A stretch of DNA of 64,000 bases from IMG/VR virus record IMGVR_UViG_3300035659_000004, positions 1 through 64,000 of that record. One strand, written 5' to 3'. The notes beneath the pieces are model-generated. The model was not told the DNA's origin. It ran no database searches and saw only the letters and a list, made by a program, of their open reading frames with translations. This DNA is from a virus. This document shows, in pieces, positions 10,588 through 48,080 of the stretch (its first letter is position 1; every line of letters begins with the position of its first letter). Made by a program: the position numbers and the translations under genes.

Positions 10588-10592
10588 ATAAA

Positions 10593-14058: not shown

Positions 14059-14572
14059 TCTTCCTCCAATAGGTTGAGATACAGGAATTTGTTCCAGGGA
14101 CGCACGCGCCTGTCAGGAAGTAGACGGAGCGGGGGCAGTACAGACACGCGGGCTCGAATTTGCTCTCGTGCAGGAAATAGAATTTTCCTAGACCAGTGCC
14201 TAGATTTGTTGTTTTTGCTTTCGTTGCTTTTCGTGCGTATTGGTAGGCGTAATGCTGGTCTCGATTAATGTACGTGGGAATTACAAGGCAAGCTTTATTT
14301 CGATAGAGAAGATTTCGGAGCTCTTCGCGGATGTAGGTGGCGGGAGGGTAATGTCCTGAATAGGCCCATTCGGTGGTTATAACGCTGGTTGTATTTGTGT
14401 TGGGATGCACGACCCAGGCGGTCCTAAAGAGTTTCGCCAATTCCTCCTCGTTAACCGTTGGGACAATGTAGTAGATGTTCCAAGGTATTCGGTTGGGTTC
14501 TTTAGAAGAGACGTGCACCCGTGAAAAGCGGTCTGGACGGTTTATCCGGAGAATGGGGATCGGCTCAGTCAT
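14042..14572 (-). CDS. Small Cys-rich protein upstream of the reverse transcriptase
   Basis: A 176-residue unrecognised protein. The frame opens at a TTG at 14575, but the ATG at 14572 overlaps the vWA gene stop by 8 bases and is the more likely start. The C-terminus carries CLYC followed by two further Cys (GAC and SC), a possible zinc site. The central part is rich in Tyr, Arg and Lys (QHYAYQYARKATKAK), which could suit nucleic-acid binding. Its 3' end overlaps the RT start by 17 bases. It is likely an accessory factor of the RT. Confidence 0.6.
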   Translation of the reverse strand: MTEPIPILRINRPDRFSRVHVSSKEPNRIPWNIYYIVPTVNEEELAKLFRTAWVVHPNTNTTSVITTEWAYSGHYPPATYIREELRNLLYRNKACLVIPTYINRDQHYAYQYARKATKAKTTNLGTGLGKFYFLHESKFEPACLYCPRSVYFLTGACVPGTNSCISTYWRKNGSLV

Positions 14573-16208
14573 CAATTTTCACCACGATATCCTGCATGGC
14601 AGGGTGGACTGAACCTTTTGGGCAGATGACCCAGATGACGGGGCAGGGGGGTTTTAATCTAGGCATGGGTCCTCCTTGTATGTCGCTGACGGGAGCTTCT
14701 CCGTCGGTGAAGATGACCATCAGGTCGGTTGCGAAGGGTTGCGTGTCGGGCCTCGGTACAGACCAGTCTTTGGCGGTGTCTTTCCCGAGTACGCGTCGAA
14801 AGGGAGCACAGAAGTCAGTACCTCCATATCCGTGGCGAATGCGCAGTGTTTTGGCTATCTCTTGAATCTCGGAGTCACTCGAGGTGCGGGTAAAGAGTTC
14901 TTCGTATTGAATCCCGTGATCGAAGGTGATGGCGCGAAGCATTACGCCTTGGAATTGACGTAGGATGGCTATGTGTTCGTTGATACAGATTGCGAAGTTG
15001 TCGTCGCTCATGGACCCGCTTGAATCTGTTGCGAGTGTGATACGAAAAGTGAAGTCGTGGTTGTAACCGGGGAAAGGCTCAATCCCTTCATCGAGGACTG
15101 GATACAGCGCGATGTTTGGCTGATTCATAGAATAAATCAGCTTGTTACTAATGACGCTCTTGATTTGGTTCCTGAGGACGATAGGCCAGGGTACCCGGGG
15201 TTCTGTAAGAAGCTCTTCGACAATCTTTTGCATGCACCCGGGAATGGTTCCGCGGTTGCGTGTTGTTTGCTCGACAGCGGTACGCACGGCAGACGCAGCG
15301 TTTCGCTGGATGTCGTTTGCGAGGCGCTCGAGCTCGCCCCCGGACATATTCAGTATCTTCCCTAGAGCCTTTTCAGTGTCCCGGGGGAACAGTGGATCGA
15401 AGTCGCCACAGTCTTCATCATCTTCGGGGTCTTCTTCGCTCTCGGGGTCTTCGTCGTCCCCGTAGTCGTTGTCGTCCTCGTCCTCGTAGTCATCATCTTC
15501 GGGGTCTTTATCGTCTCTTTCGTCATTCTCGTCATCTTCGGGGTCTTCATTATCCTCGGGGTCTTCCTCGCGTTCAGGGTCTTCGTTGTCTCCGGGGTCT
15601 TGACCTTCTTCAGGTTCATCATCGGGGTCCCCGAAGCAATTCATATTAAGCATCATTTCGTTTTCTTTTATCTTCTTAAGAATTTCAGCTATCGCATTTT
15701 CTCTTTCCATTAGTAGCAAAAAGTATTCTTCCATGCTCAACCCCTGAGGGAGGTTACATTTTTCAGGGAAGAGTGCCTTTTCATAAACAATTTTAAAGGC
15801 TTCTACGTTTTTTCCTACTATTAAGGGCCGTACCGCGAGGTCGTTCGCCGTGAGGTCTGCGGCTATATTCAGTGTCTCCCATATTTTTCGTAGTTTTGGA
15901 TTGGCCGAGAGGACTCTAGCCCCTCCAATTGTTCGAAGCATTCTTTCGTGATGACGAAATCCTAGATGTGCAGCTTCGTGTACCAATATGCAGAGCTGCA
16001 TGGGAACGGGTTGGGCGTTGAACTTTTTAAGGTCGACATGCAAACAGAATCTGCCTGCGTTATCAATTGCAATGCCTGCGGGAGCTTTCAGGACTGTGTA
16101 ATTACGGCGGCAACTATTTAGAATTCGTCCGAAGAAGTTATTGTCGCCACGATAACTTCCGAGCCAGTAAAACGCATTTTGCAGAGGTGTCCGGTCTAGG
16201 GCTGACAT
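14565..16208 (-). CDS. vWA-domain protein with HExxH metallopeptidase-like N-terminus
   Basis: A 547-residue protein. The N-terminal part has HEAAH at 77-81 with further His at 86-87, a zincin-type active site in the layout of the DUF2201 family. The C-terminal part is a von Willebrand A domain with an intact MIDAS: D395-x-S-G-S-M-S, a downstream Thr in the GGTDF region, and VIFTDGE. Between them, roughly residues 197-275, is an extreme Asp/Glu/Pro repeat that probably forms a disordered linker. Such proteins usually pair with MoxR AAA+ ATPases, and one lies at 18051-19352. AAAGGA precedes the ATG. It heads the overlapping operon that contains the reverse transcriptase. Confidence 0.8.
   Translation of the reverse strand: MSALDRTPLQNAFYWLGSYRGDNNFFGRILNSCRRNYTVLKAPAGIAIDNAGRFCLHVDLKKFNAQPVPMQLCILVHEAAHLGFRHHERMLRTIGGARVLSANPKLRKIWETLNIAADLTANDLAVRPLIVGKNVEAFKIVYEKALFPEKCNLPQGLSMEEYFLLLMERENAIAEILKKIKENEMMLNMNCFGDPDDEPEEGQDPGDNEDPEREEDPEDNEDPEDDENDERDDKDPEDDDYEDEDDNDYGDDEDPESEEDPEDDEDCGDFDPLFPRDTEKALGKILNMSGGELERLANDIQRNAASAVRTAVEQTTRNRGTIPGCMQKIVEELLTEPRVPWPIVLRNQIKSVISNKLIYSMNQPNIALYPVLDEGIEPFPGYNHDFTFRITLATDSSGSMSDDNFAICINEHIAILRQFQGVMLRAITFDHGIQYEELFTRTSSDSEIQEIAKTLRIRHGYGGTDFCAPFRRVLGKDTAKDWSVPRPDTQPFATDLMVIFTDGEAPVSDIQGGPMPRLKPPCPVIWVICPKGSVHPAMQDIVVKIDD
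15383..15620 (-). repeat. Acidic tandem-repeat tract encoding Asp/Glu/Pro linker
   Basis: Within the vWA gene the coding strand repeats short GAGGACCCCGAAGA-like units, giving many imperfect DPE/EDPED copies. The tract is low complexity and likely to vary in length by replication slippage. It links the metallopeptidase-like and vWA parts. Confidence 0.75.
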
Positions 16209-27000: not shown

Positions 27001-27692
27001 CAATGAATTGTTTGCGTAGCATAGTCAAAATCTAAAAGGCCTATGCCGTCTTTTCCTGCGGTAATAGGGATTACGTTAGAAGGAAAAGGTGGAGGAGGAA
27101 CGCTATCCGTCGTCGTATCCCCGGGGTAGTCGGGGTCATCTTTTAATTTCGAGACATCGCCCTCAGCGCCATCGTCGCTATATAAATCTTCCTCTATTTT
27201 GTTACGAGGATTTGCCGCTATTGCTAATCCCTTAGCATACGCTTGCGCGGCCAATATGAGTTGTTGATGGCAGACTTCATAAAATAATTCTTTAGATTCC
27301 TGGGTGAGTAACTGCTGTTCGCTCTGCGTAATGTAAGTGCTGTTCTTAAGAAATTGTACCCCTGGATAACTACTAGAAATATAGATGAGGGTTTCCGTGT
27401 AAGTTGTCTTGCATATATTAGAAATGAGTTCGATAGGATCGATAGGGTGGTATCCGCAACCAAAACAATGTCCGTGTTTTTTCTTAGGATAAATATGAAA
27501 AGAAGGTGAAGTATCTGCGTGGTCAGGATGCGGACAAAGGCTAACGATGTCATCTTCACGGTTCTTACGGAGGCCTAACGACCCACTATTTTGGAGGTTA
27601 AGCCAATTCTCAACTGTGATACCTTCCCAAACTCGGTCTATTAAGGATTTGTCAAATTTAACAATTTCCGCTGCCTTGTTCGTCTTGGCCAT
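24054..27692 (-). CDS. Primase-helicase: CHC2 zinc finger, Toprim and P-loop ATPase
   Basis: A 1212-residue replication protein. The N-terminus has a DnaG-type zinc finger (C53, H58, C76, C79). A Toprim domain follows, with VVEGEFDAL (Glu372) and a later LIGDAPSKGN segment, the catalytic centre for primer synthesis. The C-terminal part has Walker A GETGSGKTT at 806-814, Walker B ILYCVDELESD and an Arg-rich motif after GSITGTDKPQDLNR. The ATPase does not look like a DnaB/RecA-type helicase and is closer to the D5 or DUF927-like type. CAGGAG precedes the ATG. It overlaps the nuclease gene upstream by 35 bases and the polymerase downstream, so the three form one replication operon. Confidence 0.82.
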   Translation of the reverse strand: MAKTNKAAEIVKFDKSLIDRVWEGITVENWLNLQNSGSLGLRKNREDDIVSLCPHPDHADTSPSFHIYPKKKHGHCFGCGYHPIDPIELISNICKTTYTETLIYISSSYPGVQFLKNSTYITQSEQQLLTQESKELFYEVCHQQLILAAQAYAKGLAIAANPRNKIEEDLYSDDGAEGDVSKLKDDPDYPGDTTTDSVPPPPFPSNVIPITAGKDGIGLLDFDYATQTIHWLVSVRKLPLNILPDLPIGIVPPISAIPNLAKQLLESPNRKTKHDNALALIQTISEFLNKDVNKGVSNSATGGVVFPLCTAEEHIAAFRIRLPNAVGANKRITLLQDNFEPGMGFFGLNFGPYREFLRNNSTQKIKSYVVVEGEFDALQPMVQCLQTGVVECAVVSAGGTSSLAAFDSVIQLNDVKYLYLIGDAPSKGNSNSSANVLAQWINTITAPECGVVIFTDAAWEKLAPAEDLDNAYVLPALSPQFISSTILDKDSYKPAWSWLVDAAILQLQEYTADDVTTMTSTAISVGRTLHRKEDIEAYVQALCNLYPILRPNPIKNGIISNDSNIKTYIDRVAEVLRSLFTVIGVDRSSSEGATLVLYNKRQKQFARVKLDSERSIIQEIASITGTIITFLEKEVGLPSCIVIPDNSLSRIDKELRYILREAVLQLVPDAPSMSNLKNIRNGYHHLDSKEILVHGTDAYDIIRTDNDISYNLLPSPRIGNILVDTYKDDAVINRKWFNRLEPLTPDVLRKAQQYDMKKVYHDLCRYFDTGFIFAQQDLNCQLLAALILTFPIMSCFDRQVVVHFTGETGSGKTTLQSVFSEVEKDSSNLSIQLLYASRYVQHITVPALAFDAEDCAILYCVDELESDTVKNKQATDQFLEMLRGATSGNSSRTTMNRNGEGTITRCINVPVIFGSITGTDKPQDLNRIISINMVKRIGYSDPNSSIHRVFSPQELYDLRLAVNFGMYSHIPKVREHYTAFRSSYDKIKDQLESSVEFRFMSAFFPVFAVLETIGIDYMSFFKEYVKNNESLIRRTTQSSDADTYLTKILHHSVIRLSDFKETAQCQSLARIIANRSWRQELNDTGVGVFYDELKQLMLFNIEQVITHLLPSHERNTNATSALNLRNTLGRHPAALTDEAIKESGILSRASMSMGIGVSIDNVMVFNGRYWLDAHDANIKSASLADKGKEKKKEEAEEMQEDEITEDTIDADF

Positions 27693-28488
27693 CTAGGTCT
27701 CCTGTCACATGGACCGCTAGTGGACAACGTGATTTGAAATCACACCACCCACAGAGCTTACTAGGTTTGCCTTGGTCGAGGTTTTCAGCGGCGTCTTTCG
27801 TGGTTTTGTTGAGGTGTTCTATCACCTGGTCAATCCACGGGAGAACGCTATCAACCTCTATCGGTTTACCCACGTCGGTGTATTCATCTTGCACCCAATG
27901 AATCGCCGGGATTACATGAGTAATTTGAGGATAATTTGCTTTGGTGAGGAGTGTGTAAGATAAGAATTGCCACTTATAGTACTCAAGTCCGCGGTTTTTA
28001 CCTGTCTTGTGGTCAATGATCATGATGTGGGGCTTTTTGTTAAAAAGAATAGCGACATCGATAACTCCTCGCAGTAGTCCGGAGTTATCAAAAAACTGAA
28101 GAGGACGTCCGTTAAAAGTCGTCGCTACTTTCCTCTCGATAAGAATCTCAGCACCGCCCATTTTTTCGATGAAATTAGTGGTACGTTTCATGAAAGTAGC
28201 AACCGCAGGCATTGCGAGTTCTACTTTCTCACGTTCTAAAGTCAGGAGTTTGGTCTTGGGGTCAGACATCGCTTCACTTTTAGCGGCATCGAGCGAGTAC
28301 CCCGATAAGCAGAGCTCCAGGATTTTGTGAACCACAATTCCCACTTGAGCTTCTTCCCCCAGACGTCCTTTAGTCATTTTATTTACGTACGTATGCTTAA
28401 ACTTGAGAGGACACTGTTGGGCAGTATCCGCTTTGCTAGCAGACCAAGGGGCGTACTTTTTCACAAATGGGGTAGCTTCTACAGACAT
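27658..28488 (-). CDS. RecB/Cas4-like PD-(D/E)XK nuclease with Fe-S-type cysteines (copy 1)
   Basis: A 276-residue nuclease. The active-site motifs are LLRGVIDVAILF (Asp) followed by IMIIDHKTGK (D-x-K). Four cysteines, one in TAQQCPLKF near the N-terminus and three in LCGWCDFKSRCP near the C-terminus, match the [4Fe-4S] cluster of Cas4/AddB-like exonucleases. These resect DNA ends in recombination. It is first in the run that continues into the primase-ATPase and polymerase, and a terminator separates it from the gene upstream. No cas1 or CRISPR array is present, so a phage recombination role is more likely than spacer acquisition. Confidence 0.8.
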   Translation of the reverse strand: MSVEATPFVKKYAPWSASKADTAQQCPLKFKHTYVNKMTKGRLGEEAQVGIVVHKILELCLSGYSLDAAKSEAMSDPKTKLLTLEREKVELAMPAVATFMKRTTNFIEKMGGAEILIERKVATTFNGRPLQFFDNSGLLRGVIDVAILFNKKPHIMIIDHKTGKNRGLEYYKWQFLSYTLLTKANYPQITHVIPAIHWVQDEYTDVGKPIEVDSVLPWIDQVIEHLNKTTKDAAENLDQGKPSKLCGWCDFKSRCPLAVHVTGDLDGQDEQGSGNC

Positions 28489-28594: not shown

Positions 28595-29584
28595 TTATGC
28601 ATCTTCGTTGATGGCTCCGTACCCAAATGCTGCGTCAGTTGCAGGTGTCACTAACGCCGGTATCCCGGCCGTTTCACCTGCTTTTACAGTGGGGTCTTCT
28701 TCAGGCACATTTGCATAACTACGAGCGATGGCGGGGAAGACATAGTCACGCCCTGCGGCGCAGTAGAGAGCGTCACAGATAGGCGACAGGGCCGGAGGAA
28801 CTAGCCCCTCGGGACCAGGGATGGCCCCAACCACGTAGATAAACCAACGTGCCTTCTTGTTGGTCTCACTGGTTTGAACAAGCGTCTTCATGGAGTACCA
28901 GCGATACCAGAGTTGCGGGGTTCTTCCGGCAAATTTCAGGAGTTGGCGTCCTGCTCCTTCGGACGTATTCTTGAAACGCACGAGAACGAGTTCACGTCCA
29001 TCTTGTGCCAGCATAAACGCGTTTACATAGTTACGGCAGTACATGTCCGACTTTTCTTCGTCTTCTGCCTTTTTACGCCACGGTAGGTATGTGCATTTTT
29101 GACATTCACCGAAATGTGACCCAATTTTACGGTCATTGGAATAACACATCACCTTAGGCATCGCATCGTCATCGGGGGCTTTCTTTTCCGCCAATTCACG
29201 CCCCTCCCAAATAAAGATAGGAGTACCGATGAATTCTTTTCCAACCTTTTCACCTGAACTGTAATACATCTCCCCCGGGATTAAATCGACAGGGCGATTT
29301 GGGTCATTTCCGGTTCCGTGGAATAAGCGGAGGTCCGTGTGAAACGCCTGTATTTTTTCACTAACGATTCCTTTACGTTCGGGGTTAAGCCGTTTTAAGA
29401 CATCGTAAAGTGCTTCTTTTTGTGGGATTTCATCAGAAAGCGCGTCGACGAGCTCGAATAGGGCATCGGGCTCTTTATAATCGCGCGCAACGCTTAAGAT
29501 ACGTTGGCCGTATTCGCGTACGAAGTTCTCATAATCTTTGTATTTTTCGAGGGCGGCCACTTCTGATTTCACGATGTTACTCAT
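28595..29584 (-). CDS. Unknown replication-region protein, possible ssDNA-binding protein
   Basis: A 329-residue protein with AAAGGTG before its ATG. The central part has KVMCYSNDRKIGSHFGEC, then KCTYLPW, then DMYCRN, a four-Cys site set in a beta-rich stretch followed by LVLVRFKNTSEGAGRQLLKF. This arrangement recalls phage single-stranded-DNA-binding or annealing proteins in which a zinc site lies within an OB-like fold, but no definite family match can be made by eye. The C-terminus is flexible and ends in acidic residues (INEDA), also common in SSBs. It is a monocistronic unit closed by a strong terminator, suggesting high expression. Confidence 0.5.
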   Translation of the reverse strand: MSNIVKSEVAALEKYKDYENFVREYGQRILSVARDYKEPDALFELVDALSDEIPQKEALYDVLKRLNPERKGIVSEKIQAFHTDLRLFHGTGNDPNRPVDLIPGEMYYSSGEKVGKEFIGTPIFIWEGRELAEKKAPDDDAMPKVMCYSNDRKIGSHFGECQKCTYLPWRKKAEDEEKSDMYCRNYVNAFMLAQDGRELVLVRFKNTSEGAGRQLLKFAGRTPQLWYRWYSMKTLVQTSETNKKARWFIYVVGAIPGPEGLVPPALSPICDALYCAAGRDYVFPAIARSYANVPEEDPTVKAGETAGIPALVTPATDAAFGYGAINEDA

Positions 29585-29638
29585 TTTTGACGTGCACCTT
29601 TCTCTGTTTCGAGGGACAGGAATCCTACCACTGGGATG

Positions 29639-29672
29639 TTGCCCTATGCAAGCATTCTGTGGTCTAATAAAA
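29639..29672 (+). promoter_or_regulatory. Possible sigma-70-like promoter for the sigma factor gene
   Basis: TTGCCC at 29639-29644 and TCTAAT about 18 bases downstream lie in the 106-base divergent gap between the gene at 29584 (-) and the sigma gene at 29691 (+). The match to the -10 consensus is moderate. No transcript evidence is available. Confidence 0.3.
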
Positions 29673-29690
29673 ATAAACAGGAGGTAATTG

Positions 29691-30638
29691 ATGAGCGAAA
29701 GTTATAGTGATCGAACATTCCAAGCATACTATAACGATGTAGGAAAACATGCGGTAATATCCGCCGAAGAAGAACGCCTATATCTAACGCGATATAAAAC
29801 ATGTCCGCAATGTAATAGAAGCCTTCCGAAACTAGTACGACAAGCCTTTTGCCCTACTTGCAAAAAACCAATCACCGAACATGTCCAACCGGGGCGCCCT
29901 ATTGTGTGTACGAAGTGTACGACACGTTTTGATTCGTTTAAACCTCCTTCGTATTGTCCATGGTGTGGAGCTTCTAGGGATTTAGTATCACGCGAAAAAC
30001 TCTTACAAGCGAACCTCCGTTTTGTTGTGAAGATTGCTAAAAAATTCGCTAAGTCCACCTCCTCCATTCAACGTTTAATTTCTGCAGGAAATGTCGGTCT
30101 TGTCTTAGCTATTGACAAATATGAGTTCAAGCATAACACACGTTTTTTAACGTATGCCGCTTGGTGGATTCGAAAAGAAATATGGGATGAATTGCATAAA
30201 TCGAGTCTCGTACATATCCCTTTGCATCGACAGCGAGATAAACAATCATTGCCAGAGTACGACAGTTTTGAAGTGATGGTGGAGCAAGACCTAGCATACC
30301 ATTCCCTTATACCACTAGAAAACACTCCTTCTCAAGCGCTGGTAACGAATGATGACGACATTGTTGAAACCAAGGCGATAGATGCAGATAGTGCGGCGCT
30401 ATTACGTAGGGTAGTAGATAGTTTAGACCTCCGTCCCCGGGACAAATTTATTATTCTCCAACATTATGATGTCGCAGAAGAGACCCGAAGGACGGAGGAG
30501 AAAACGTTGATGCAGATTGCTTCCGCGGCAGGAATTACATCCGAACGCGTGAGACAAATTAGGGATGGGGTTTTAATGAGATTGAAGACGAAACTGCAGA
30601 AGTCTTGCGCGATCTCGGAATTTTCCGAGCTCTATTAG
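29691..30638 (+). CDS. Sigma-70-family factor with inserted double zinc ribbon
   Basis: A 315-residue sigma factor. The TTG at 29688 also fits, but AGGAGG 7 bases before the ATG at 29691 decides the start. Residues 8-36 resemble region 1.2. Region 2 is clear (EKLLQANLRFVVKIAKKFAK, then DKYEFKHNTRFLTYAAWWIR). Region 4 is a helix-turn-helix (LMQIASAAGITSERVRQI). Between 1.2 and 2.1 lies an insertion with four Cys pairs, C38/C41, C54/C57, C73/C76 and C89/C92, enough for two zinc ribbons. Region 3 is degenerate. It presumably directs either host or the phage's own beta/beta' RNA polymerase (39445-48080) to phage promoters. The gene converges on the ParB-like gene with a 4-base overlap. Confidence 0.85.
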   Translation: MSESYSDRTFQAYYNDVGKHAVISAEEERLYLTRYKTCPQCNRSLPKLVRQAFCPTCKKPITEHVQPGRPIVCTKCTTRFDSFKPPSYCPWCGASRDLVSREKLLQANLRFVVKIAKKFAKSTSSIQRLISAGNVGLVLAIDKYEFKHNTRFLTYAAWWIRKEIWDELHKSSLVHIPLHRQRDKQSLPEYDSFEVMVEQDLAYHSLIPLENTPSQALVTNDDDIVETKAIDADSAALLRRVVDSLDLRPRDKFIILQHYDVAEETRRTEEKTLMQIASAAGITSERVRQIRDGVLMRLKTKLQKSCAISEFSELY

Positions 30639-31681
30639 TCGATTTGCGCGAGACCCGCGGCCGCTTGAACTCCTTGCATGAAGTAATCGTATTTACCACG
30701 AATGTTTGCGTTGCGCGCGTTGTTTTTCTTTTCCTGATACGTATTCAAGACCGAGCCGATTTGCTTTGCGGATAACGGCTTGATCTGCTTCAGGTAAGAA
30801 GGATCGAGATAGTCGTAGTTCTCTTTCTTAGACGTAACCTTTCGGCCACGCTTTTTCTCCTCCTTCTTTCCCGCCGCCTTATCGGCTTCTTTACGCCGAT
30901 TGATCCACGTATCAACGACGGTCGCTACGGACAGCGCCGTCAGTTTTCCCGTTTTGATTTTGGTTAAAACCTTGTCGAAAAACTTGAGGTCTCGATTGTC
31001 GTCGTAGTTCAAACGACACAGGGCGTGTGCTGCTGTGAAATCGAGTTTGCCCGCGTTAAGCATCTTCTTCGCTTCGTCTGGTAGGCACTCCAGACGTAGA
31101 TGCTGTGCTACCACGTTCTCGCTATGACAGGTGGTAACTGCAATCTGTTTGATAGTTTCTCCCGCATCACGCATATCGCTAAACGTTCTGCAGAGTTCTA
31201 GGGGAGTATGCTCTTCCCGCGCTGTATTTGCGGCGGTGCTGATACGACGTGCTTCCCGCTCGTCACAATCTCGAACAGATACGAGAGCTTCAGCGATTCC
31301 TGCTTCTTTTAGGGCGGCATAACGGCGCCGTCCATCGACGAGTATAGCTTTTCCATCCTCACGCAAACGGACGAGAATGGGGGTTATTTGTCCCTCTGCT
31401 TGAATGGACTGAGCAAGTTTATCGATGTTTTGCAACTTATCCCGATTCCATTTGGAAGAGAGTTCGATGTCCTTGAGCTTCATCTTCATGACCGAGGCAC
31501 CCGGCAGTTCTTTCTTACTTACCACTATTTTCTTCACGGAAGAAAGTGGAAGGGGTGGAACCTCCTTGGGAGTATTTAATGGAGGAATAATTTCGTCCAT
31601 GTCGGCACAAAGGTCACGCACAATCGCGTCTTCTTCCGCACTTTTACTCGATACCACTTTTTCAGTTTCGTCTTGGGTCAT
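30635..31681 (-). CDS. ParB-like DNA-binding / nuclease-fold protein
   Basis: A 348-residue protein with a ParB N-terminal domain: SIQAEGQITPILVR then ILVDGRRRYAALKEAG (about 113-127) and STAANTAREEHTPLE near 148-161. An HTH-like segment (IKQIAVTTCHSENVVAQHLRL) follows. The C-terminus is Lys-rich (KAAGKKEEKKRGRK), suited to DNA contact. In phages such proteins serve in partition, DNA methylation modules or gene regulation. No ParA is visible. Its ATG overlaps the upstream stop (ATGA). The 3' end overlaps the sigma gene in convergent orientation. Confidence 0.78.
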   Translation of the reverse strand: MTQDETEKVVSSKSAEEDAIVRDLCADMDEIIPPLNTPKEVPPLPLSSVKKIVVSKKELPGASVMKMKLKDIELSSKWNRDKLQNIDKLAQSIQAEGQITPILVRLREDGKAILVDGRRRYAALKEAGIAEALVSVRDCDEREARRISTAANTAREEHTPLELCRTFSDMRDAGETIKQIAVTTCHSENVVAQHLRLECLPDEAKKMLNAGKLDFTAAHALCRLNYDDNRDLKFFDKVLTKIKTGKLTALSVATVVDTWINRRKEADKAAGKKEEKKRGRKVTSKKENYDYLDPSYLKQIKPLSAKQIGSVLNTYQEKKNNARNANIRGKYDYFMQGVQAAAGLAQID

Positions 31682-33638: not shown

Positions 33639-34514
33639 TCACCTCTTTCCACGACATCGGGCGTAGTAGCCACAGTAGGTAGGCGAGCAGTGCCACCCGG
33701 TTGGAGCACAACGCGGAAAAATCCCGGCTTTGATATTTCTCGAGACCTCCGCGACATCTTCCAAAAGTACCATCTTTTCCTGCCGGCCGCGCTTGCTCGT
33801 TATCGGGGTATATTTTATTCCCGTTTTTTGCGCCGCGAGAAAATCGATTCTAACGCGGTCGGTGTTTTCTGCAATAGCATAAAACGTTAATTGTGGCTCA
33901 TTATCAATTCTCGAAGACGCCCAGAGCTTTTTTACCGTTTTAAGATCGCTCACGACTTCGACCATTTGAGGGTTTTCCGGGTCGTTCTCCAGACTCATGT
34001 CTGGATTTTTCACTGAATCAACCAGGTCGATAATGCCCAAAACAGGAACTCCACACAACTCGCGCGTCCACTTGAACGTATGTTCCACTCGTACTGGATG
34101 AATGTACGGAACAGCGTCCCTGTAATATACCTTAAACATACGGATTGATTGGTCTTTGGCGTCCCCTTGAGTCTCCTCTTTCCACTCTTCAATCTCGGGT
34201 GCTTGCGCGTCGAACTTGTCCGAGACCGCGGAGACGCCCTCGTCGATAGACGCGGGAGCTCCATGTTGGATGGTATGCCGATGCGTGATTTCCGCGCCCT
34301 TGTGGACGGCAGTCCCTCGAATCTGGGCAATGCCTGGGGGCCGCACGAGCTGAACGATATACGCGTACTCATATTGTCGCGGACACCGTTGGTACATGTT
34401 GAATTGGGAAGGCGATAGATACCCGCGCGGGAGCTCGGGGTCTATCCAGTCTTTGTCTTCTTCAGGTGCTATTGGGGGTGCTTCTTCTTTGTCGTCGAGT
34501 TCGTCACTCATCAT
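33639..34514 (-). CDS. RecB/Cas4-like PD-(D/E)XK nuclease (copy 2)
   Basis: A 291-residue protein. SPSQFNMYQRCPRQYEYAY near residue 33 and CSPTYCGYYARC near the C-terminus give the four Cys of the Fe-S-type RecB/Cas4 fold. The active-site motifs are VLGIIDLVDSV and MVEVVSDLKTVKK (D-x-K). It is a different protein from the nuclease at 27658-28488 and the two share only the motif framework. AGAGG precedes the ATG, which overlaps the upstream gene by 11 bases. It belongs to the operon with the SNF2 helicase and endolysin, suggesting DNA-end processing. Confidence 0.8.
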   Translation of the reverse strand: MMSDELDDKEEAPPIAPEEDKDWIDPELPRGYLSPSQFNMYQRCPRQYEYAYIVQLVRPPGIAQIRGTAVHKGAEITHRHTIQHGAPASIDEGVSAVSDKFDAQAPEIEEWKEETQGDAKDQSIRMFKVYYRDAVPYIHPVRVEHTFKWTRELCGVPVLGIIDLVDSVKNPDMSLENDPENPQMVEVVSDLKTVKKLWASSRIDNEPQLTFYAIAENTDRVRIDFLAAQKTGIKYTPITSKRGRQEKMVLLEDVAEVSRNIKAGIFPRCAPTGWHCSPTYCGYYARCRGKR

Positions 34515-39395: not shown

Positions 39396-39444
39396 ATGCA
39401 AAGGTCTCCTCTCTATATACTTGTACCCAAAGTCGAGGTCGTAT

Positions 39445-42400
39445 ATGAATTTGACACCCATCCTTCAAAGTCCAGATGAGAAGCGCGAACGTATTCGGAA
39501 TAAGGTCGTGGAAGGACTGACAGAATCATTCCCAATTACGGCGCGTAACAAAATCATAGAAGTGACAGATGTTTCTTTTACTCCTCGAGACTACACCTCG
39601 AACGAGCAAAAGATGGCTATCTTGAGAGGTGATTCTCTTTTCGAGACCGCGAAGGGGACAGTGAAAATAAAAGACGCGAAGACGGGTAAAGTCTTGGATG
39701 AAGCGAAGGGATTTACATTAGCTCGAGTACCGTGGTTTACTCCACGACACACGCTTATTGTCGGAGGAAATGAATATTCGATTGCGAATATGGTGCGTCC
39801 TAAACCAGGGGTGTACGCTCGCAAGCGCGCTAATGGAATTCTCGAAGCAAGTTTTAATACCATAGGTACTTCGAACTTTAATGTAACGATGGACCCTGAA
39901 AAAGGTGAGCCAGAACTCGAATATGAATCCTCGAAGATTCCCCTTTACACCATTCTTCGTGCATCGGGTATGTCCCATGAGACTATCGCGAAGAAGTGGG
40001 GTACTGCTCTTGCGAATGAGAATCGAAAGAAGCTAGAAAAGAATCTTCCGCAACACGTAGACCGTCTTTATAAAAAAGTCGTACCGGCGTATGCCCTTCT
40101 TCCCGATCTTACTGTCGATGCGAAGATGGCTGAGATTGTTAAGCGTTATGGTACGGCTAAGATGGACCCAAAAGTAAATGAAAAAACGTTGGGACACGCG
40201 TATGGACACGTAACTCCTGACAGTCTTTTGGATGCATCAGCTAAAGTTTTGAGTATTTTCCGTAACCCAGAAGAAGTCGATGACCGAGATAATCTCGACT
40301 TCAAATCTTTGCGTTCAGTAGAGGACTTTTTCAAGGAGCGTATCCAACTCGATGCTCGAGACATTGGACGTAGAGCTGCTATTAAAATCGAGAATACCCC
40401 TGAGGTACGCAAGGCCATGGCTCCCGGGGCGTTCACTCCTGGCCTCGTCAAATTCATCACGGGCTCGCAGTTGGCAGCTGTTCCGACGCAGACCAACCCC
40501 ATGGAGCTCATCGATGCCGCAGTACGTGTGACGGCATTGGGTGAAGGTGGTATTAGTTCCGAACGTGCTATTCCAATGGAAGCACGGATGATTCATCCGA
40601 CGCAGATTGGAGCTATCGACCCTGTTCGAACGCCTGAGTCTTTTCGAGCGGGTATTGACGTCCGTGCTGCTATTGGAGCGCATCATGATAAAGATGGTAA
40701 CATCTATGTTCCCATGTTCGATTTGGCGACGGGGAAACAAAAGCATATTCGGGCAGGAGAAATTGCAACTTCAATCGTGGCATTCCCTCAGCAAGTTTTA
40801 AAGGGGAAGGTCTCAGCGCTTGTTAATGGACGTGTGGCGATGGTTCCTGCTAGTAAAGTTCAGTATCAAATACCACACTCATCTGCGATGTATGGACCTA
40901 CTTCAAATCTCATTCCGTTCATCGAATCGTTGCAAGGGAATCGCCAACTGATGGGGTCCAAGCATCAGACCCAAGCTATCTCGTTAGTTGATCGAGAAGC
41001 TCCCTATGTACAGGTAATGGCGCCGGGTGGAAAATCTTTTGAGCATCTCATGGCGACGATTGTTAATCCAACAGCGCCAGTTGCGGGAACAATTGAGAAA
41101 GTAGATGGGGATTACATCTACATTCGACCACATGATAAGACAGCAGCCGTTAAAAAGGATAAAGACTCGGACCTCGTGCGCGTGTCATATGATACGTACT
41201 TGCCGATGGCTGCTAAGACCTATCTCAACCATACCGTCACGGTGAAAGCGGGGGATGAGGTTAAGAAGGATGAGATCCTCGCGGAGTCTAATTTCACGAA
41301 AGATAAGACGCTAGCTCTCGGTAAAAATCTTTCCGTTGCATACATGCCTTATTACGGAGCAAATTCAAATGACGCGGTAGTTATCAGTTCCGGCGCCGCT
41401 AAAAAGCTGACGTCCGAACGTCTCTATAAAATTGTGCTCCCGCGTGACGCTGACATGGTTTTCAATAGTACGAAGCATAAGACGTATTACGGACATACCT
41501 ACGGACATGACTATTACAAGGGCGTAGATGAAGAAGGAGTAGTACGCCCGGGTGCGAAAATTAATAGTGGGGAACCTGTCGTATTTGGGTTGCGGAAATC
41601 GACCCTGACTTCTGATGATATTCTTCTGGGACGTCTGCACAAATCTCTCGTCCGACCTTTCCGAGATGCGACGCAGACCTGGGACCATGACCATCCCGGA
41701 GAAGTTATGGATGTCGTAAAGACGCCTAAGAGAATTGCAATCACAATAAAAACACAGGAACCTATGCAGATAGGTGATAAACTCTGTTACACGGAAGATA
41801 CAGAAGTCCTGACGACAACGGGGTGGAAGTACATTGTAGATGTTACCACCGATGATATTTGTTATACGCTCGATACGCAGGGCATAATTCATTTATATAA
41901 TCCTACACATACTAACTATTATTCTAAAGCAGGACAACTTTTTTTAGTACGTTCACAGCATGCAGATTTATCTGTGACGTTGGACCATAGTCAGGTAATT
42001 AAAGATGGTGATAGGAATAAATTAGTCCCATCGCGTGAATTGGTTAATAAGCCTTTTCAATTGGTGCGCACAGGAATTTGGACGCCGAAGAGTGCTCCTG
42101 AGTCAGACTCATGGTGTGCACTAGTTGGTTTATACGCCGTAAAAGGACATCTTATTCCTGCGACGCTTATACAGGGAGTTATGGACCATTCTGTAGAGAT
42201 TTATCTACGTCCGCGTATGTTAGAAGAAGAACGTCCTTGGTTGGACCTTATTTTGCAAGATACGCACCTGAAAGATAAGAGTTATATTCAAGGTGATATT
42301 TTGATTATCCGAGACCGAGATTTTTATTTAAGTTGTCAAGTATTAGGGGACGTCGTAGAACGGCGACTTCCAACATTGGTATTCACTCTGGCTCCTAGCC

Positions 42401-44805
42401 AAGCCGGGATAATTATTGATAGCGTTTTAAAAGCCGCAGGTCATCAGACAGGACGAAGTCATATTCAGTACGGAGATGGGACTGATGTCTGTGTCGTGTA
42501 TTCGCGGCAGTTAGCGGATGATCTACAGCGCTTGGCGCTACACGCGGGGTATTCTGCAAACATCGCAACGCATACAGTGAAACGCCCGCAATATGCGAAA
42601 CGTTATTCGCTGCGGTTCCTCCGAAAACGTAGCAATCCGTTCATCAATAACCCGAGAGGTAACCAACAGAACACGCGAGTTATCGATTCAGATGCTCCAG
42701 TGTTTGGTATTACCATTCCAAATCACACCTTGTACGTGCGTGTGAATGGAAAGCCTGTGTGGTCAGGTAACTCCGGGCGATACGGGAATAAGGGTGTGGT
42801 ATCTGAAATCGTTCCGGATGACCAGATGATTAAAGACGAAGCAGGACGACCTATCGATGTTCTTTTAACGTCAGCAGGTGTTGTCTCGCGCGTGAATCCC
42901 GCACAAATAATTGAGACAGCTGTAGGAAAGGTCGTCGAGAAGACGGGCAAGCCACTCATCGTCGAAAGCTTTTCAGGAAGAGATAATGTGAAGTGGGCGA
43001 AAGACCTTCTTCAGGAGCACGGTCTAAAAGACAAAGAGATGGTTTTTGACCCGCGTTCTGGAAAGAGTATCCCGAACGTGATGGTGGGACGCCAATACAT
43101 CTTCAAGATGTTCAAGTCCACGGACACCAACTACAGCGCACGAGGTGTGGATACCTACGACGCAAATCTTCAGCCTACGAAGGGTGGGTCTGAGAGTGCA
43201 AAGGCCATAGGTAAGATGGAGTTCGACGCGCTTGTCGCACACAACGCCCGGAATGTGTTGCGTGAGTCTTCGGTCCTGAAGAGTCAGAAGAACGATGAGT
43301 ACTGGAGAGCTCTTCAGCTAGGATATCCCACGCCTCCTCCGCGCACGTCTTTCGCTTCGGACAAGTTCTTCAATATGCTGACAGGCGCGGGAGTTCGTGT
43401 TGATCGTAAAGGCTCGAAGATAGGGTTGGCGCCTCTCACAGACGCGGACGTGATGGAGATGTCGGCAGGTGAGATACAGGACGCGAAGCTCGTCAGTGCT
43501 AAGAATTTAATGCCTGAAAAGGGTGGGCTCTTTGATCCTGCAATCACCGGTGGAATGAAAGGAACGAAGTGGTCACATATCAATTTGGCCGAGCCTATTA
43601 TCAATCCTATTTTTAATGACCCAGTTCGGCGGTTGTTAGGGATGACTAACGCGCAGCTCGATAATACCGTGCGCACAAAGGGTATCGGTTACGTTAAATC
43701 CGAGCTCGCGAAGATAGACGTCACGAAACGTGAGAGTGAACTCATGGATATGGCGAATAATAAGAAGGGAAATGTGCTCGATGATGTCACCAAGCAGATA
43801 AAGTATTTGCGGGCATTGAAGGCGCAGAACATATCTCCGGAGAAGGCTTACATCTCGAGCGTTATCCCGGTTCTTCCTCCGATCTTTCGCCCGGTGTTGC
43901 CAGGTAAGGGTGGGCAGGAGCTCATTTACGGCGACATCAATCCGCTGTACCGCGACTTGGTGTACGTGAACAACCAGTTCAAAGAGCTGAAGAAGTCTGG
44001 GAAGCTTCCTGACGAAGAGGCCAAGTTGCGAGGAACTCTCCAATCAGCGGTTGGAGCTGTGTATGGGATGAACGACCCCATCACACAGAAGTCAAAGAGT
44101 AGAAATCACAAGGGATTCCTGACGTATATCGCAGGACAGGGGAGCCCCAAGTACGGGTACGTGCATTCCAAGCTCCTGAAGAAACAGCAGGACTTGGCCG
44201 GCCGCGGAACGATTGTCCCGGATACGACTCTGGGAATGGACGAGGTCGGTCTCCCGGAGAATATGATTTGGACGATGTATAAACCGTTCATGATCACGCG
44301 CCTCGTGGGACAGGGGTATCCAGCGCTGCAGGCGAAGCAGATGGTCGATGATAAGCATCCCGCGGCGCGCGAGGCGATGATGCGCGAGACCCGGGAGCGG
44401 CCGGTCATGATCAACCGTGCGCCGACGCTGCATCGATATGGAATAGTTGGAGCATATGCCATACCCAATGCCGGAAAGACCATAAGAATCAATCCTTTCG
44501 CGGAGGTAGGTACGAACAGCGATTTCGATGGGGATACGATGATGGTCCACGTTCCAGCTGGAGCGAACGCTGTCGAAGATGTGAAGCGCATGACGCTTTC
44601 GAACACGCTTTATACTGACAAGATTCGCGGCGACCTACTCGTGGCGCCTCGGATGGAATCGGTCATGGGGCTCGCGCAAGCTACGGCGGTTACGGGAAGC
44701 GGGAAGGCAAAGGTTTACCAAACCAAAGCCGAAGCGATGGCGGACTACAATTCAGGAAAGATAGACCTGGGAACGAGGGTCACCATCAAGGACCGCAAGC
44801 CGTGA
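39445..44805 (+). CDS. rpoB-rpoC1: RNA polymerase beta / beta' N-terminal fusion, intein-containing
   Basis: A 1786-residue precursor. A TTG at 39421 is possible, but GAGGTC lies 6 bases before the ATG at 39445. The beta part shows HPTQIGAIDPVRTPES, LVDREAPYVQV, YMPYYGANSNDAVVIS, GDKL...SGRYGNKGVVS (broken by an intein), PIDVLLTSAGVVSRVNPAQI and a GKMEFDALVAH C-terminal anchor. Without a break it continues into beta': GGLFDPAITGG, RPVMINRAPTLHRYGIVGA and the catalytic NSDFDGDTM (44515-44535), where the three Asp bind magnesium. It stops shortly after, and the rest of beta' is at 46278. No alpha subunit is recognised. The stop overlaps the next GTG start. Confidence 0.93.
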   Translation: MNLTPILQSPDEKRERIRNKVVEGLTESFPITARNKIIEVTDVSFTPRDYTSNEQKMAILRGDSLFETAKGTVKIKDAKTGKVLDEAKGFTLARVPWFTPRHTLIVGGNEYSIANMVRPKPGVYARKRANGILEASFNTIGTSNFNVTMDPEKGEPELEYESSKIPLYTILRASGMSHETIAKKWGTALANENRKKLEKNLPQHVDRLYKKVVPAYALLPDLTVDAKMAEIVKRYGTAKMDPKVNEKTLGHAYGHVTPDSLLDASAKVLSIFRNPEEVDDRDNLDFKSLRSVEDFFKERIQLDARDIGRRAAIKIENTPEVRKAMAPGAFTPGLVKFITGSQLAAVPTQTNPMELIDAAVRVTALGEGGISSERAIPMEARMIHPTQIGAIDPVRTPESFRAGIDVRAAIGAHHDKDGNIYVPMFDLATGKQKHIRAGEIATSIVAFPQQVLKGKVSALVNGRVAMVPASKVQYQIPHSSAMYGPTSNLIPFIESLQGNRQLMGSKHQTQAISLVDREAPYVQVMAPGGKSFEHLMATIVNPTAPVAGTIEKVDGDYIYIRPHDKTAAVKKDKDSDLVRVSYDTYLPMAAKTYLNHTVTVKAGDEVKKDEILAESNFTKDKTLALGKNLSVAYMPYYGANSNDAVVISSGAAKKLTSERLYKIVLPRDADMVFNSTKHKTYYGHTYGHDYYKGVDEEGVVRPGAKINSGEPVVFGLRKSTLTSDDILLGRLHKSLVRPFRDATQTWDHDHPGEVMDVVKTPKRIAITIKTQEPMQIGDKLCYTEDTEVLTTTGWKYIVDVTTDDICYTLDTQGIIHLYNPTHTNYYSKAGQLFLVRSQHADLSVTLDHSQVIKDGDRNKLVPSRELVNKPFQLVRTGIWTPKSAPESDSWCALVGLYAVKGHLIPATLIQGVMDHSVEIYLRPRMLEEERPWLDLILQDTHLKDKSYIQGDILIIRDRDFYLSCQVLGDVVERRLPTLVFTLAPSQAGIIIDSVLKAAGHQTGRSHIQYGDGTDVCVVYSRQLADDLQRLALHAGYSANIATHTVKRPQYAKRYSLRFLRKRSNPFINNPRGNQQNTRVIDSDAPVFGITIPNHTLYVRVNGKPVWSGNSGRYGNKGVVSEIVPDDQMIKDEAGRPIDVLLTSAGVVSRVNPAQIIETAVGKVVEKTGKPLIVESFSGRDNVKWAKDLLQEHGLKDKEMVFDPRSGKSIPNVMVGRQYIFKMFKSTDTNYSARGVDTYDANLQPTKGGSESAKAIGKMEFDALVAHNARNVLRESSVLKSQKNDEYWRALQLGYPTPPPRTSFASDKFFNMLTGAGVRVDRKGSKIGLAPLTDADVMEMSAGEIQDAKLVSAKNLMPEKGGLFDPAITGGMKGTKWSHINLAEPIINPIFNDPVRRLLGMTNAQLDNTVRTKGIGYVKSELAKIDVTKRESELMDMANNKKGNVLDDVTKQIKYLRALKAQNISPEKAYISSVIPVLPPIFRPVLPGKGGQELIYGDINPLYRDLVYVNNQFKELKKSGKLPDEEAKLRGTLQSAVGAVYGMNDPITQKSKSRNHKGFLTYIAGQGSPKYGYVHSKLLKKQQDLAGRGTIVPDTTLGMDEVGLPENMIWTMYKPFMITRLVGQGYPALQAKQMVDDKHPAAREAMMRETRERPVMINRAPTLHRYGIVGAYAIPNAGKTIRINPFAEVGTNSDFDGDTMMVHVPAGANAVEDVKRMTLSNTLYTDKIRGDLLVAPRMESVMGLAQATAVTGSGKAKVYQTKAEAMADYNSGKIDLGTRVTIKDRKP
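41785..42771 (+). mobile_element. Intein in the beta subunit, with a degenerate LAGLIDADG region
   Basis: 329 residues interrupt GDKL/SGRYGNKG. Cys1 opens block A (CYTEDTEVLTTTGWK). Block B is near SVTLDHSQVI, with the Asp-His in the usual His position. The C-terminal blocks are PVFGITIPNHTLYVRVN and then GKPVWSGN, with terminal Asn and Ser as the +1 extein residue. The penultimate residue is Gly where His is usual, a known variant. An LVGLYAVKG segment at 42121-42147 resembles the first LAGLIDADG motif but has Lys at the acidic position, so the homing endonuclease is probably inactive. Splicing is required to rebuild the polymerase active site. Confidence 0.9.
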
Positions 44806-46274
44806 CAGATTCTCCGACGATCATCTCCGGACCGGACTATACCCTGACTAAACAGGAAGTGGTCGATTACTATAAAGACCCGGGGGTTCGAGAAAAGCTT
44901 CTTCAGCATATCGGGAGCAACCCTGTTCTGACTGTGATGCAGCGCACCCCCGGGGAGCCCATCTATCGACGCTACGACGCGAAGAAGCAGCCTCTTCTTC
45001 TGAATCCCCAGTCGTTAGACGACCTTACGAGGCAACGTACCGTGGAGTTCCACTCTACCCTCGGCGAGGGTACACGGGAAATGTGGGTAGATTTGGACCC
45101 TGGCTCGGCGGTCTCTCCCGGCCGGCTCAAGCAGACGGTGAAGCACGTTGAAGACGTGTTGCGAAAACTCCCTCAGGTCACGAATACGAATATCGTTTTT
45201 TCAGGAGGTCGAGGCTACCACGTGCGCGCCGAGCTCGAGAAGGAGCTCAAGACAGACGCCGCCCGAAAGCTTCTTCAAAAGACGTTGCGCCCGCTGCAGA
45301 CGTCGAGCCCCGACCTTGTGGATGCTCCTCCTGGAGGAACTCAGATTCGCTTGGATACCTCGACGTTCCATGCCAAAGGGTCTGTGCGGGCGCCCTACTC
45401 TTTGAACGCGACGACGGGACTGGTAGCGTTGCCTGTGGCGCGTGAAAAGTTGGACATATTCGAGCCCAAGACTGATGCGTCCATCAAGAGTGTCTTGTCC
45501 CAAAAAGACATCGGGGAGTTTGCTCCAGGGATTCCTCGAGAGCGAACGACTCAGCTCCTGCCGACTGCCAAGGGCAAGGCCTGGACGCTTGCGATACAGA
45601 AGCACGTAGCTGAAAAGGCTGGACCGCATTGGGACTTGCGCCTCGTTGACCCCGAGACAGGACAGGCCCATTCCTGGGCGGTCCCTAAGGCTTCTTTTCC
45701 GGACTCCAAGCCACGCCTTGCTTTGCAGATGCCAACGCATAGCGCGGACTACGCCCTTTCTTTTGGTGCGAAAGGTCCGCAAACTATTCGTGAAGGGTAC
45801 GGTAAGGGCACGGTGGAGATGGCGCATAAGGAGCCTATCCAAGTTTTGGAAATCAATCCAAATAAGGTTGTTTTTCAGCGCGGCTCCGGGGACACTCTGG
45901 CGATGCGTCGAACGAACGAAAACAAGTGGTTGCTCCGAAAGGCAACGAACATGACTGAGAAGAATGCTTTTTACGTTGCTGGATACCGCGCGGCGCTTGC
46001 CAAGCTTGGGGCAGCGGCAGTTAAACCTGTGGGAATGCGTGGAAAAGAGATGTCCTATGGAGAGGGAAACCGTCCCCTGGAAAGTGGAGATTCCCATCTT
46101 CCCGCGGGACAGGTTGCGATGATGTTCCAGCAGTTGCCCCGAGCTCAACGACGAGGTGGCAGTGTATCGTTGGAGAACTCGTCAGCCGTCGGAGATAACC
46201 ATGCGGATTGGGGTCCAGCAATGGACGTCTCGAGTTTTGATGGAGCTTCTCCGTATATGGCAGGACGGAACTGA
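44802..46274 (+). CDS. AEP primase / LigD-type 3'-phosphoesterase fusion
   Basis: A 490-residue protein with a GTG start overlapping the polymerase stop (GTGA). Residues 90-220 show archaeo-eukaryotic primase motifs: WVDLDPGS (Asp97, Asp99), VFSGGRGYH (134-140), and RLDTSTFHAKGSVRAPYSL with Asp185. Residues 260-345 match the LigD phosphoesterase: His268, His276, Asp278 and Arg280 in IQKHVAEKAGPHWDLRL, SWAVPK, and His313 and Tyr317 in THSADYAL, then EGYGKGTVE. These correspond to the six active-site residues described for Pseudomonas LigD PE, which trims 3' ends by removing ribonucleosides and phosphates. No ligase domain follows. The C-terminus has FYVAGYRAALAKLG, shared with nearby head proteins. 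Confidence 0.82.
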   Translation: MTDSPTIISGPDYTLTKQEVVDYYKDPGVREKLLQHIGSNPVLTVMQRTPGEPIYRRYDAKKQPLLLNPQSLDDLTRQRTVEFHSTLGEGTREMWVDLDPGSAVSPGRLKQTVKHVEDVLRKLPQVTNTNIVFSGGRGYHVRAELEKELKTDAARKLLQKTLRPLQTSSPDLVDAPPGGTQIRLDTSTFHAKGSVRAPYSLNATTGLVALPVAREKLDIFEPKTDASIKSVLSQKDIGEFAPGIPRERTTQLLPTAKGKAWTLAIQKHVAEKAGPHWDLRLVDPETGQAHSWAVPKASFPDSKPRLALQMPTHSADYALSFGAKGPQTIREGYGKGTVEMAHKEPIQVLEINPNKVVFQRGSGDTLAMRRTNENKWLLRKATNMTEKNAFYVAGYRAALAKLGAAAVKPVGMRGKEMSYGEGNRPLESGDSHLPAGQVAMMFQQLPRAQRRGGSVSLENSSAVGDNHADWGPAMDVSSFDGASPYMAGRN

Positions 46275-46277
46275 TCC

Positions 46278-48080
46278 ATGGCAGATAGGACTGACACATT
46301 CGGAAGATTGCTTGTAAATGACTTGTTGCCAGACGAGCACAAGGTCACGGGACCTATATCGAAGAAATCTTTTTATAAGATGCTCGATACGATGTCGCGT
46401 GAGACTCCGGATGCGTATGTCCGCATAGTGCCCGAGTTAAAACGTCTCGGAGATTCACTTGCTACGACGGAGGGGCTCTCGGTTGGATTGGACGATATCA
46501 CTCCCAACTATAAAGATAGGAATGAAACACTTGCTCCTTTTATTACGCGTTTCGATGCGGCTAAAACGGATAAGGCCCGGAGTCAAATAGCAGAAGAAGC
46601 GCATGGTAAGATGCAAGATGTGGCGATGCGCCATAAGGGAACGATGACGATGCAGGTACAGAGTGGGGCACGCGGTAACCCTACTCAGTACACCTCGATT
46701 GTGGCATCTCCAACTTCAGCACGAGACGGAAAAGGGAATACGGAACCCTGGCTTATCCGACGGTCCCATAGCGAAGGGCTCTCTTCGGCGGATAACTGGG
46801 TCGCGGGAAATGAAGCCATTCTTAATACTATCAGTACATACACAGCGGTATCTGAGCCGGGTGAATTGGCGAAGATTCTCGTGAGTAACATGAGCGACAT
46901 CATAGTAACAGAGGATGATTGTGGAACTACTAATGGTGTGTTTATGACTGCTTTGTCTCCTTCTGTATTGGACCGTTATCTTGCGAAAGAAGTAGGTGGT
47001 TTTAAACATAACACGCTTATTACGTCACTCAATCAGTCCAAATTAGCAAAGATTTCTTCTACTATTCTCGTCCGATCTCCGATGACGTGTGAGGCAGGGG
47101 ATGGTGTCTGCCAAAAGTGTCAGGGCCTAAATGAAAAGGGAAGCACGCATGATATCGGAACGAATGTTGGTGTACGCGCGGCCCAGGCAATGGCGGAACC
47201 TCTTACGCAATTCGCTCTCGGGGCCAAGCATGGGGCGCGAACAATTAAAGATGATCGTATCAAGGTGAAGGGGGTCCAAGGGTTTCGACAGATCATTGAA
47301 TCCCCCCAGCAGTTTGTAAACAAGGCGACGTTGGCGCAGCTGAATGGAACTGTTGAGCGCATCACTCCGGCTCCACAAGGCGGCCATTACGTCGTGATTG
47401 GTGGACAACAACACTACGTAACTCCTAATCTCGCAGTCACGGTAAAAGTTGGAACAGTCGTTCAGGCTGGAGACGCTGTAAGTCAAGGAATTCCCAAACC
47501 CGACGAAGTCGTACGACTGAAAGGTCTGGGAATAGGGCGTCAATATATTGTTGATACCTTGGCAGGTCTTTACAAGGACCAGGGTCGAGAATTAGATCAG
47601 CGGCATTTCGAGCTGCTCGCTAAGGGAGAGCTCAACTACGTGCGCGTTCTCAAAGACCCAAGCCGTAATTTCGTTCCGGGGGACGTAGTTAGTTACAACG
47701 TCTTGAGGAGGGAACTGAAGAAGGGTACCAAGGTCATGCCCGTCGACGACGCCAACGGGGAGACTTTAGGTAAAGCTTATTTTCACTTTTATACAGGAAC
47801 TCGTGTTACTCCCCAGATTCAGGCCTACCTGAAACAACAGGGAGTAAAGGAAGTCATCATCGCTCCGCGTGCGCCTGAAGTAGAATTCATCATGAAAGCT
47901 GCGACCCGAGCCCCTCTTCTAAACCCCGATTGGATGGCTCGATTGTCGCATCGCAATTTGAAAAATACAATCATGCAAGCCACGCACTTTGGAGAATCTT
48001 CAGACATCCACGGAAGCCACCCTGTTCCTGCGTATATTACGGGAGTAGAATTTGGGCAGGGTACCAAAGGAAAGTACTGA
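46278..48080 (+). CDS. rpoC2: RNA polymerase beta' C-terminal subunit
   Basis: A 600-residue protein that continues beta' where the fusion at 39445 ends. Motifs are DDCGTTNGVF, then ILVRSPMTCEAGDGVCQKC (the beta' zinc site with four Cys in total), then IGTNVGVRAAQAMAEPLTQ and ALGAKHGA, matching the bridge-helix/trigger-loop region in which bacteria have AAQSIGEPGTQ. The C-terminal part includes PVPAYITGVEFGQ. With the upstream gene it gives a complete catalytic core in two polypeptides. It starts 3 bases after the primase-phosphoesterase stop. Confidence 0.9.
   Translation: MADRTDTFGRLLVNDLLPDEHKVTGPISKKSFYKMLDTMSRETPDAYVRIVPELKRLGDSLATTEGLSVGLDDITPNYKDRNETLAPFITRFDAAKTDKARSQIAEEAHGKMQDVAMRHKGTMTMQVQSGARGNPTQYTSIVASPTSARDGKGNTEPWLIRRSHSEGLSSADNWVAGNEAILNTISTYTAVSEPGELAKILVSNMSDIIVTEDDCGTTNGVFMTALSPSVLDRYLAKEVGGFKHNTLITSLNQSKLAKISSTILVRSPMTCEAGDGVCQKCQGLNEKGSTHDIGTNVGVRAAQAMAEPLTQFALGAKHGARTIKDDRIKVKGVQGFRQIIESPQQFVNKATLAQLNGTVERITPAPQGGHYVVIGGQQHYVTPNLAVTVKVGTVVQAGDAVSQGIPKPDEVVRLKGLGIGRQYIVDTLAGLYKDQGRELDQRHFELLAKGELNYVRVLKDPSRNFVPGDVVSYNVLRRELKKGTKVMPVDDANGETLGKAYFHFYTGTRVTPQIQAYLKQQGVKEVIIAPRAPEVEFIMKAATRAPLLNPDWMARLSHRNLKNTIMQATHFGESSDIHGSHPVPAYITGVEFGQGTKGKY

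Follow-up and report, generated by a model that had tools for sequence, protein, structure and literature searches.

Passages of two reviews (PMC13282480, PMC7598289) describe phage multisubunit RNA polymerases that have no sigma subunit of the bacterial type, and sigma genes carried by phages devoid of a polymerase. In a survey of jumbo phages (PMC7824862), phage sigmas are dealt with separately from a TFIIE-like ribbon. The mReC phages (Weinheimer and Aylward 2020, PMC7481178) have caudoviral beta/beta' related to cellular ones, and the phage described here likely belongs to them; neither "sigma" nor "zinc" occurs in the text of that paper. No description of zinc ribbons inserted in a sigma factor was found in a literature search of open-licence papers.

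The window is the whole stretch of DNA that was analysed, i.e. 64,000 nucleotides (positions 1 to 64,000) of the IMG/VR record IMGVR_UViG_3300035659_000004. The phage lineage to which it belongs has both a polymerase and a sigma factor, at a constant distance and with matching divergence; the reviews place them apart.

The sigma gene and its domains

The elements of the sigma gene are given below with coordinates in the window, strand and evidence.

29680..29685, +: ribosome-binding site GGAGGT, ahead of the sigma ORF (sequence).
29691..30638, +: sigma-70 family gene, 315 aa, with two predicted zinc ribbons (ORF, Pfam, relatives).
29712..29798, +: region 1.2-like helices, residues 8-36 (AlphaFold2, alignment to sigma70, Pfam E 0.13).
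29802..29861, +: zinc ribbon 1, C38-C57, CxxC-x12-CxxC (Cys conservation, DNA pattern).
29907..29966, +: zinc ribbon 2, C73-C92, CxxC-x12-CxxC (Cys conservation, DNA pattern).
29982..30200, +: region 2, residues 98-170 (Pfam PF04542, structure alignment).
30210..30386, +: region 3 remnant, residues 174-232, mostly of low confidence (AlphaFold2, alignment of relatives).
30429..30587, +: region 4, residues 247-299 (Pfam PF04545).

The ORF starts with the ATG at 29691 and ends with the stop codon at 30636-30638. In the Pfam scan of the protein, Sigma70_r2 (PF04542, residues 104-170, 9e-12) and Sigma70_r4 (PF04545, residues 247-299, 9e-6, helix-turn-helix) are above their cut-offs. Sigma70_r1_2 (residues 11-29, E 0.13) is below its cut-off and no region 3.1 domain is matched. 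Region 2 is close to bacterial sigmas, its best PDB matches being housekeeping sigmas and RpoS.

The AlphaFold2 model, built from a 33-sequence alignment, has two helices (residues 8-18 and 25-36), followed by the ribbons, a region 2 of standard form and a region 4. Residues 3..171 of the model align with residues 92..446 of E. coli sigma70 (7n4e_F; 112 residues, rmsd 2.9), the alignment starting at sigma70 residue 92. The surplus sigma70 residues between 1.2 and 2.1 are its non-conserved region (NCR), so the ribbons lie at the NCR place. This bears out the earlier note, made from the sequence alone, which had put the insertion between a 1.2-like helix and region 2. The same note had called region 3 degraded, and the model agrees: residues 184-230 have a pLDDT <50 and are unreliable, and most relatives have a CxxC...C...H insert there. 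In the aligned sigmas, position 162 is either Lys or Glu. F152, T154, Y155 and W159 (all invariant, 33/33) and W158 (29/33) are taken here to map onto the -10 melting residues of sigma70.

On either side of the sigma region is an exonuclease-like ORF of the same PHROG, phrog_69 (27658-28488 and 33639-34514, both on the - strand). Elsewhere in the window, a reverse-transcriptase/polymerase-like ORF (phrog_2825, phrog_1423) is found near an HNH-endonuclease-like ORF (phrog_1314), at 12913-14058 (-) and 14565-16208 (-).

Distribution of the ribbons among relatives

Six sigma loci with 77-100% identity were found by direct search and 65 viral sigma loci by a wider alignment search. The latter are sorted below according to the number and the place of their ribbons.

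Class A, 34 loci: two ribbons at the NCR place.
Class B, 4 loci: one ribbon at the NCR place.
Class C, 7 loci: none at the NCR place; a single ribbon within region 2, where it separates helix 2.2 from helix 2.3.
Ribbon-free, the remaining 20 loci. The call is based on the protein for L115, L117, L120, L121, L126 and L127; for the other 14, it is based on the DNA pattern and on tblastn matches whose first residue is 32 or higher.

The CxxC-x12-CxxC DNA pattern has two matches in the sigma gene of 34/34 class A loci and one in 3/4 class B loci (the fourth has x13). It has no match in the sigma genes of the 7 class C and 20 other loci; the spacing of class C ribbons differs from this pattern. The same insertion was sought in other sigma factors and is far from absent in homologues: none of the 29 aligned class A sequences, down to 38% identity, has lost any of the eight Cys or either CxxC-x12-CxxC spacing. 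Identical or close copies of kept rows (L002, L003, L005, L006, L088 and L101) are omitted from this alignment.

A third ribbon-like insert, CxxC...C...H/C, is found in region 3 of 26 of these 29 sequences (L076-L087, L089-L100, L102 and L105). The three that do not have it are the clade of the window itself, in which the insert was either lost or never gained.

In the sigma tree (175 columns, insert columns excluded), classes A, B and C form one clade (99/96), each class forms one clade, and the ribbon-free sigmas fall outside the ribbon clade. The insertion is not fixed across the lineage: sister classes have one ribbon either at the NCR place or in region 2.

The class C ribbon (L108-L114) is close to the -10 reading surface. 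In L126 (about 9671-10810), in-frame stop codons are found in the sigma frame where the other sigmas are open; in this phage, one stop codon may be translated as an amino acid.

A region-2 pattern scan of the cellular genomes of 84,980 species, which reaches close relatives only, gave five sigma relatives (L135-L139). Ribbons are absent in L135-L138, the four cellular relatives that were read.

The two predicted zinc ribbons

The sigma protein has Cys at 38, 41, 54, 57, 73, 76, 89 and 92, plus one at 306; the eight Cys in four CxxC pairs reported by the earlier note are thus at their exact positions. Chance or artefact as the origin of the eight Cys is ruled out by their universal conservation among relatives. 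They very probably hold structural zinc, judging from their pattern.

The double zinc ribbon profile (DZR) of Pfam matches residues 38-93 at 5e-4, below its cut-off. The ribbon stretch has a pLDDT of about 77-92 per block of ten in the model of the whole sigma, and the double ribbon folded alone gives short hairpins (AlphaFold2, pLDDT 86). No solved ribbon fold matching the double ribbon was found in the PDB by Foldseek at E up to 0.001 (VIA best Z 2.3), so the term "ribbon" refers to the Cys spacing, the weak DZR match and the predicted hairpins. The missing PDB match is not evidence of a new fold. In a search of predicted viral structures with the sigma, only ordinary phage sigmas matched.

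Nested pairing of the knuckles (38/41 with 89/92) was weighed since only these align with the single ribbon of class B. Sequential pairing is preferred, because an x12 spacing is common to both halves and recurs in the class B ribbon (x13 in 1/4).

The ribbon of the window is basic (net charge +7), and the net charge spans -5 to +8 over 26 sequences. Given this spread, the ribbons may as well contact beta' or a partner as DNA; the variable charge does not speak for a simple DNA clamp.

The phage RNA polymerase

The elements of the phage polymerase in the window are the following.

39445..44805, +: phage RNA polymerase, a fusion of beta with the N-terminal half of beta' (the ORF opens at 39421, first ATG at 39445).
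43522..43614, +: N-terminal stretch of beta' without the bacterial zinc-binding domain, GLFDPAITGG...HINLAEP (alignment, Cys check).
43927..44061, +: clamp helices of beta', docking site for sigma region 2 (alignment).
44515-44535, +: catalytic NSDFDGD of the beta-beta'N fusion.
46278..48080, +: beta' C-terminal half, which retains the second zinc site, EDDCG, TCEAGDGVCQKC (sequence).

The split RNA polymerase claimed by the earlier note is real; it is not split alone but both fused (beta-beta'N) and split (beta'C). The N-terminal zinc domain is missing and the clamp helices are kept in 21/21 aligned phage beta'. The stretch that corresponds to this zinc domain has no Cys in 17 of these phages and one in 4.

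An intein-like insert of about 329 aa (residues 789-1117; 41785-42771, +) is found inside the beta motif GDK..SGRYGNKG, and every Cys of the beta-beta'N fusion of the window falls inside this insert. Many relatives have beta-beta'N fusions of about 1465 aa; G022 and G024 are examples free of the insert. A LigD-type primase-polymerase with a 3'-phosphoesterase-like part is encoded between both polymerase genes (44802-46274, +). A large terminase is present in the window.

Linkage of the sigma factor with the phage polymerase

The polymerase domain PF00623 is found in 23/26 records with a ribbon sigma (class A, 14/15; class B, 4/4; class C, 5/7) and in 1/20 records with other sigmas (Fisher p 8.5e-9; the records are related, so p overstates their independence). 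This count took in 15/35 class A records. In the three ribbon-sigma records without polymerase, the sequence downstream of the sigma gene runs for 4.4, 10.7 and 11.2 kb before the contig stops, less than the usual 13-16 kb. The polymerase domain is on the strand of the sigma gene and 12.9-15.7 kb downstream in all 22 records measured; G003, whose sigma and polymerase are at opposite contig ends, was left out of this distance count.

A search with beta'C gave 23 loci. Among the 20 records that entered through beta'C alone, 13 hold a ribbon sigma (in G023, only its C-terminal end, at the contig edge). The other seven have 12-63 kb; in six of them, the contig is short and the place of the sigma gene may be cut off. 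The true exception so far is G020 (63 kb), which has a close polymerase at 58.4 kb and no recognisable sigma in the 58 kb searched upstream.

In the beta' tree, classes B and C are clades (100/100) and class A is unbroken but weak (44/14). Sigma and beta' distances are correlated (r 0.83 for 20 genomes; the 11 class A genomes taken alone also give 0.83). Such co-inheritance is expected for any two old genes of one lineage.

The same polymerase lineage is found with a ribbon-free sigma in G055, Vibrio phage D69 and Salmonella phage Arash; the ribbons are thus an addition within one sub-lineage. The polymerase is 88 kb from the sigma gene in G055, and on the other strand, about 9 kb away, in D69. 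Both G055 and D69 are also devoid of the N-terminal zinc domain of beta', so ribbons are not required to compensate for its loss.

Promoter search

29639..29668, +: candidate promoter TTGCCC-18-TCTAAT, with TGG before the second hexamer (extended -10 like).

This candidate is largely conserved in four aligned relatives. It is weak because it is not recurrent in the window: TGNTCTAATA with at most one mismatch has 3 matches in the window (about 10 expected) and is not enriched, and TCTAATA has 4 (5.2 expected). As the conserved element is not enriched in the window, it does not define a promoter class. The sigma-70 promoter scan of 29400-30900 gave one site, compared with 2.1 in shuffles.

Proposed function and alternatives

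The gene product is probably the sigma subunit through which the phage's own multisubunit RNA polymerase recognises promoters. The fuller proposal is favoured with somewhat less assurance: the gene encodes the initiation factor of the phage polymerase, and its ribbons are structural and contact spacer DNA and/or the N-terminus of beta'. Region 2 of the sigma would dock on the clamp helices of the phage beta' and would then melt a -10-like element by means of its invariant residues (F152, T154, Y155, W159). The ribbons would sit on region 2, at its upstream face, as structural zinc modules. By touching spacer DNA and/or the beta' N-terminus, they would stabilise the initiation complex, and they would cover the jobs of the bacterial sigma region 3, NCR and beta' zinc domain; as region 3 and the beta' zinc domain are gone, the ribbons would be situated to occupy this surface. 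In E. coli, the NCR of sigma70 contacts promoter positions -16/-17 and beta' (section of PMC7403470), and the zinc-binding domain of beta' can strengthen contact near -35 (section of PMC10216364). Taken separately, the contact of the ribbons with promoter spacer DNA and/or the phage beta' N-terminus is a tentative part of the proposal. The earlier note had suggested that the insertion may adapt the sigma to the phage polymerase or to a distinct promoter class. The link between sigma and polymerase is supported by co-occurrence, synteny, trees and distances, and the clamp helices, whereas the role of the ribbons is one that we infer.

The sigma could also be of the ordinary phage type and serve to redirect the host RNA polymerase, either early or late, with ribbons that aid binding to the host core or outcompete the host sigma. 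The closeness of its region 2 to housekeeping sigmas and RpoS would fit, as would the usual service of phage sigmas to the host polymerase in phages without their own (part of PMC7598289). The tight linkage, synteny and parallel divergence of the sigma with a phage polymerase whose beta' has its own clamp helices make this unlikely. A regulatory port is judged equally improbable, whether a metal or redox switch or a dock for a phage activator or anti-sigma. Activators such as RbpA, Crl and GcrA do bind at 1.2/NCR/2.1/2.3 (section of PMC7403470), and CorE sigma factors carry a metal-sensing Cys-rich domain (section of PMC8999054). However, four CxxC pairs that are invariant at a fixed spacing look structural, and a single switch does not explain ribbons found at three different places in the lineage.

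Replacement in trans, by the ribbons, of the zinc domain lost from beta' is slightly less doubtful than these two readings, though still rather unlikely. The domain is missing from all 21 aligned phage beta', and the NCR adjoins beta' and the spacer (section of PMC7403470). Strict replacement is weakened by G055 and D69, which have neither feature. The loss of the beta' domain looks older than the ribbons, so trans replacement could only be a later take-over of function. Under a related scenario, also considered rather unlikely, the polymerase lineage would first have lost the beta' zinc domain, and the sigmas would then have gained ribbons at up to three places (NCR, 2.2/2.3, region 3), all of them close to upstream promoter DNA. 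The zinc module would thus have moved from the catalytic core to an exchangeable initiation factor. If true, a bacterial-type sigma would have been reworked into a layout that parallels that of TFB, ribbon plus helical domains.

In TFB, a ribbon is N-terminal to the helical domains. Kinship of the ribbons with archaeal or eukaryotic TFB/TFE, for which this layout was counted, is very improbable: the Pfam scan, taken to E values of 10, gave no match to TFB, TFE or cyclin repeats, both helical domains (regions 2 and 4) are those of sigma-70, and ribbon-free sigmas fall outside the ribbon clade. The comparison with TFB/TFE drawn by the earlier note therefore holds as an analogy and not as a shared domain. 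The preferred reading is still that the sigma, with its structural ribbons, acts as initiation factor for the phage polymerase.

Comparison with known systems

Lineages with zero, one, two or three ribbons provide a natural test of the NCR, region 3 and the beta' zinc domain in initiation, and a little-studied viral transcription machine is opened to test.

Group 1/2 sigma-70 factors with an NCR (RpoD, RpoS) share with the phage sigma a 1.2-like region, regions 2 and 4, and an insertion between 1.2 and 2.1. In the phage sigma, unlike in RpoD and RpoS, this insertion is a predicted double zinc ribbon, and region 3.1 is missing or replaced. The CorE-like ECF sigmas (ECF238) also combine a sigma with a Cys-rich metal domain (section of PMC8999054). 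Theirs is a C-terminal domain with a CXC linker in an ECF sigma, whereas the tandem ribbons found here are fixed and precede region 2.

The phiKZ/AR9-type polymerases with gp68/gp226 likewise associate a phage polymerase with its own promoter-recognition protein (section of PMC13282480). There, gp226 has no sigma sequence similarity and gp68 has only a structural likeness; here, the factor is a plain sigma-70 and beta' has clamp helices of the bacterial type. Vibrio phages D69, D181 and D148 and Salmonella phage Arash belong to the same polymerase lineage (C-terminal half of beta' 29-31% identical over 99%). The sigmas of D69 and Arash differ from that of the window in carrying no ribbons, and are usable as comparison in named phages.
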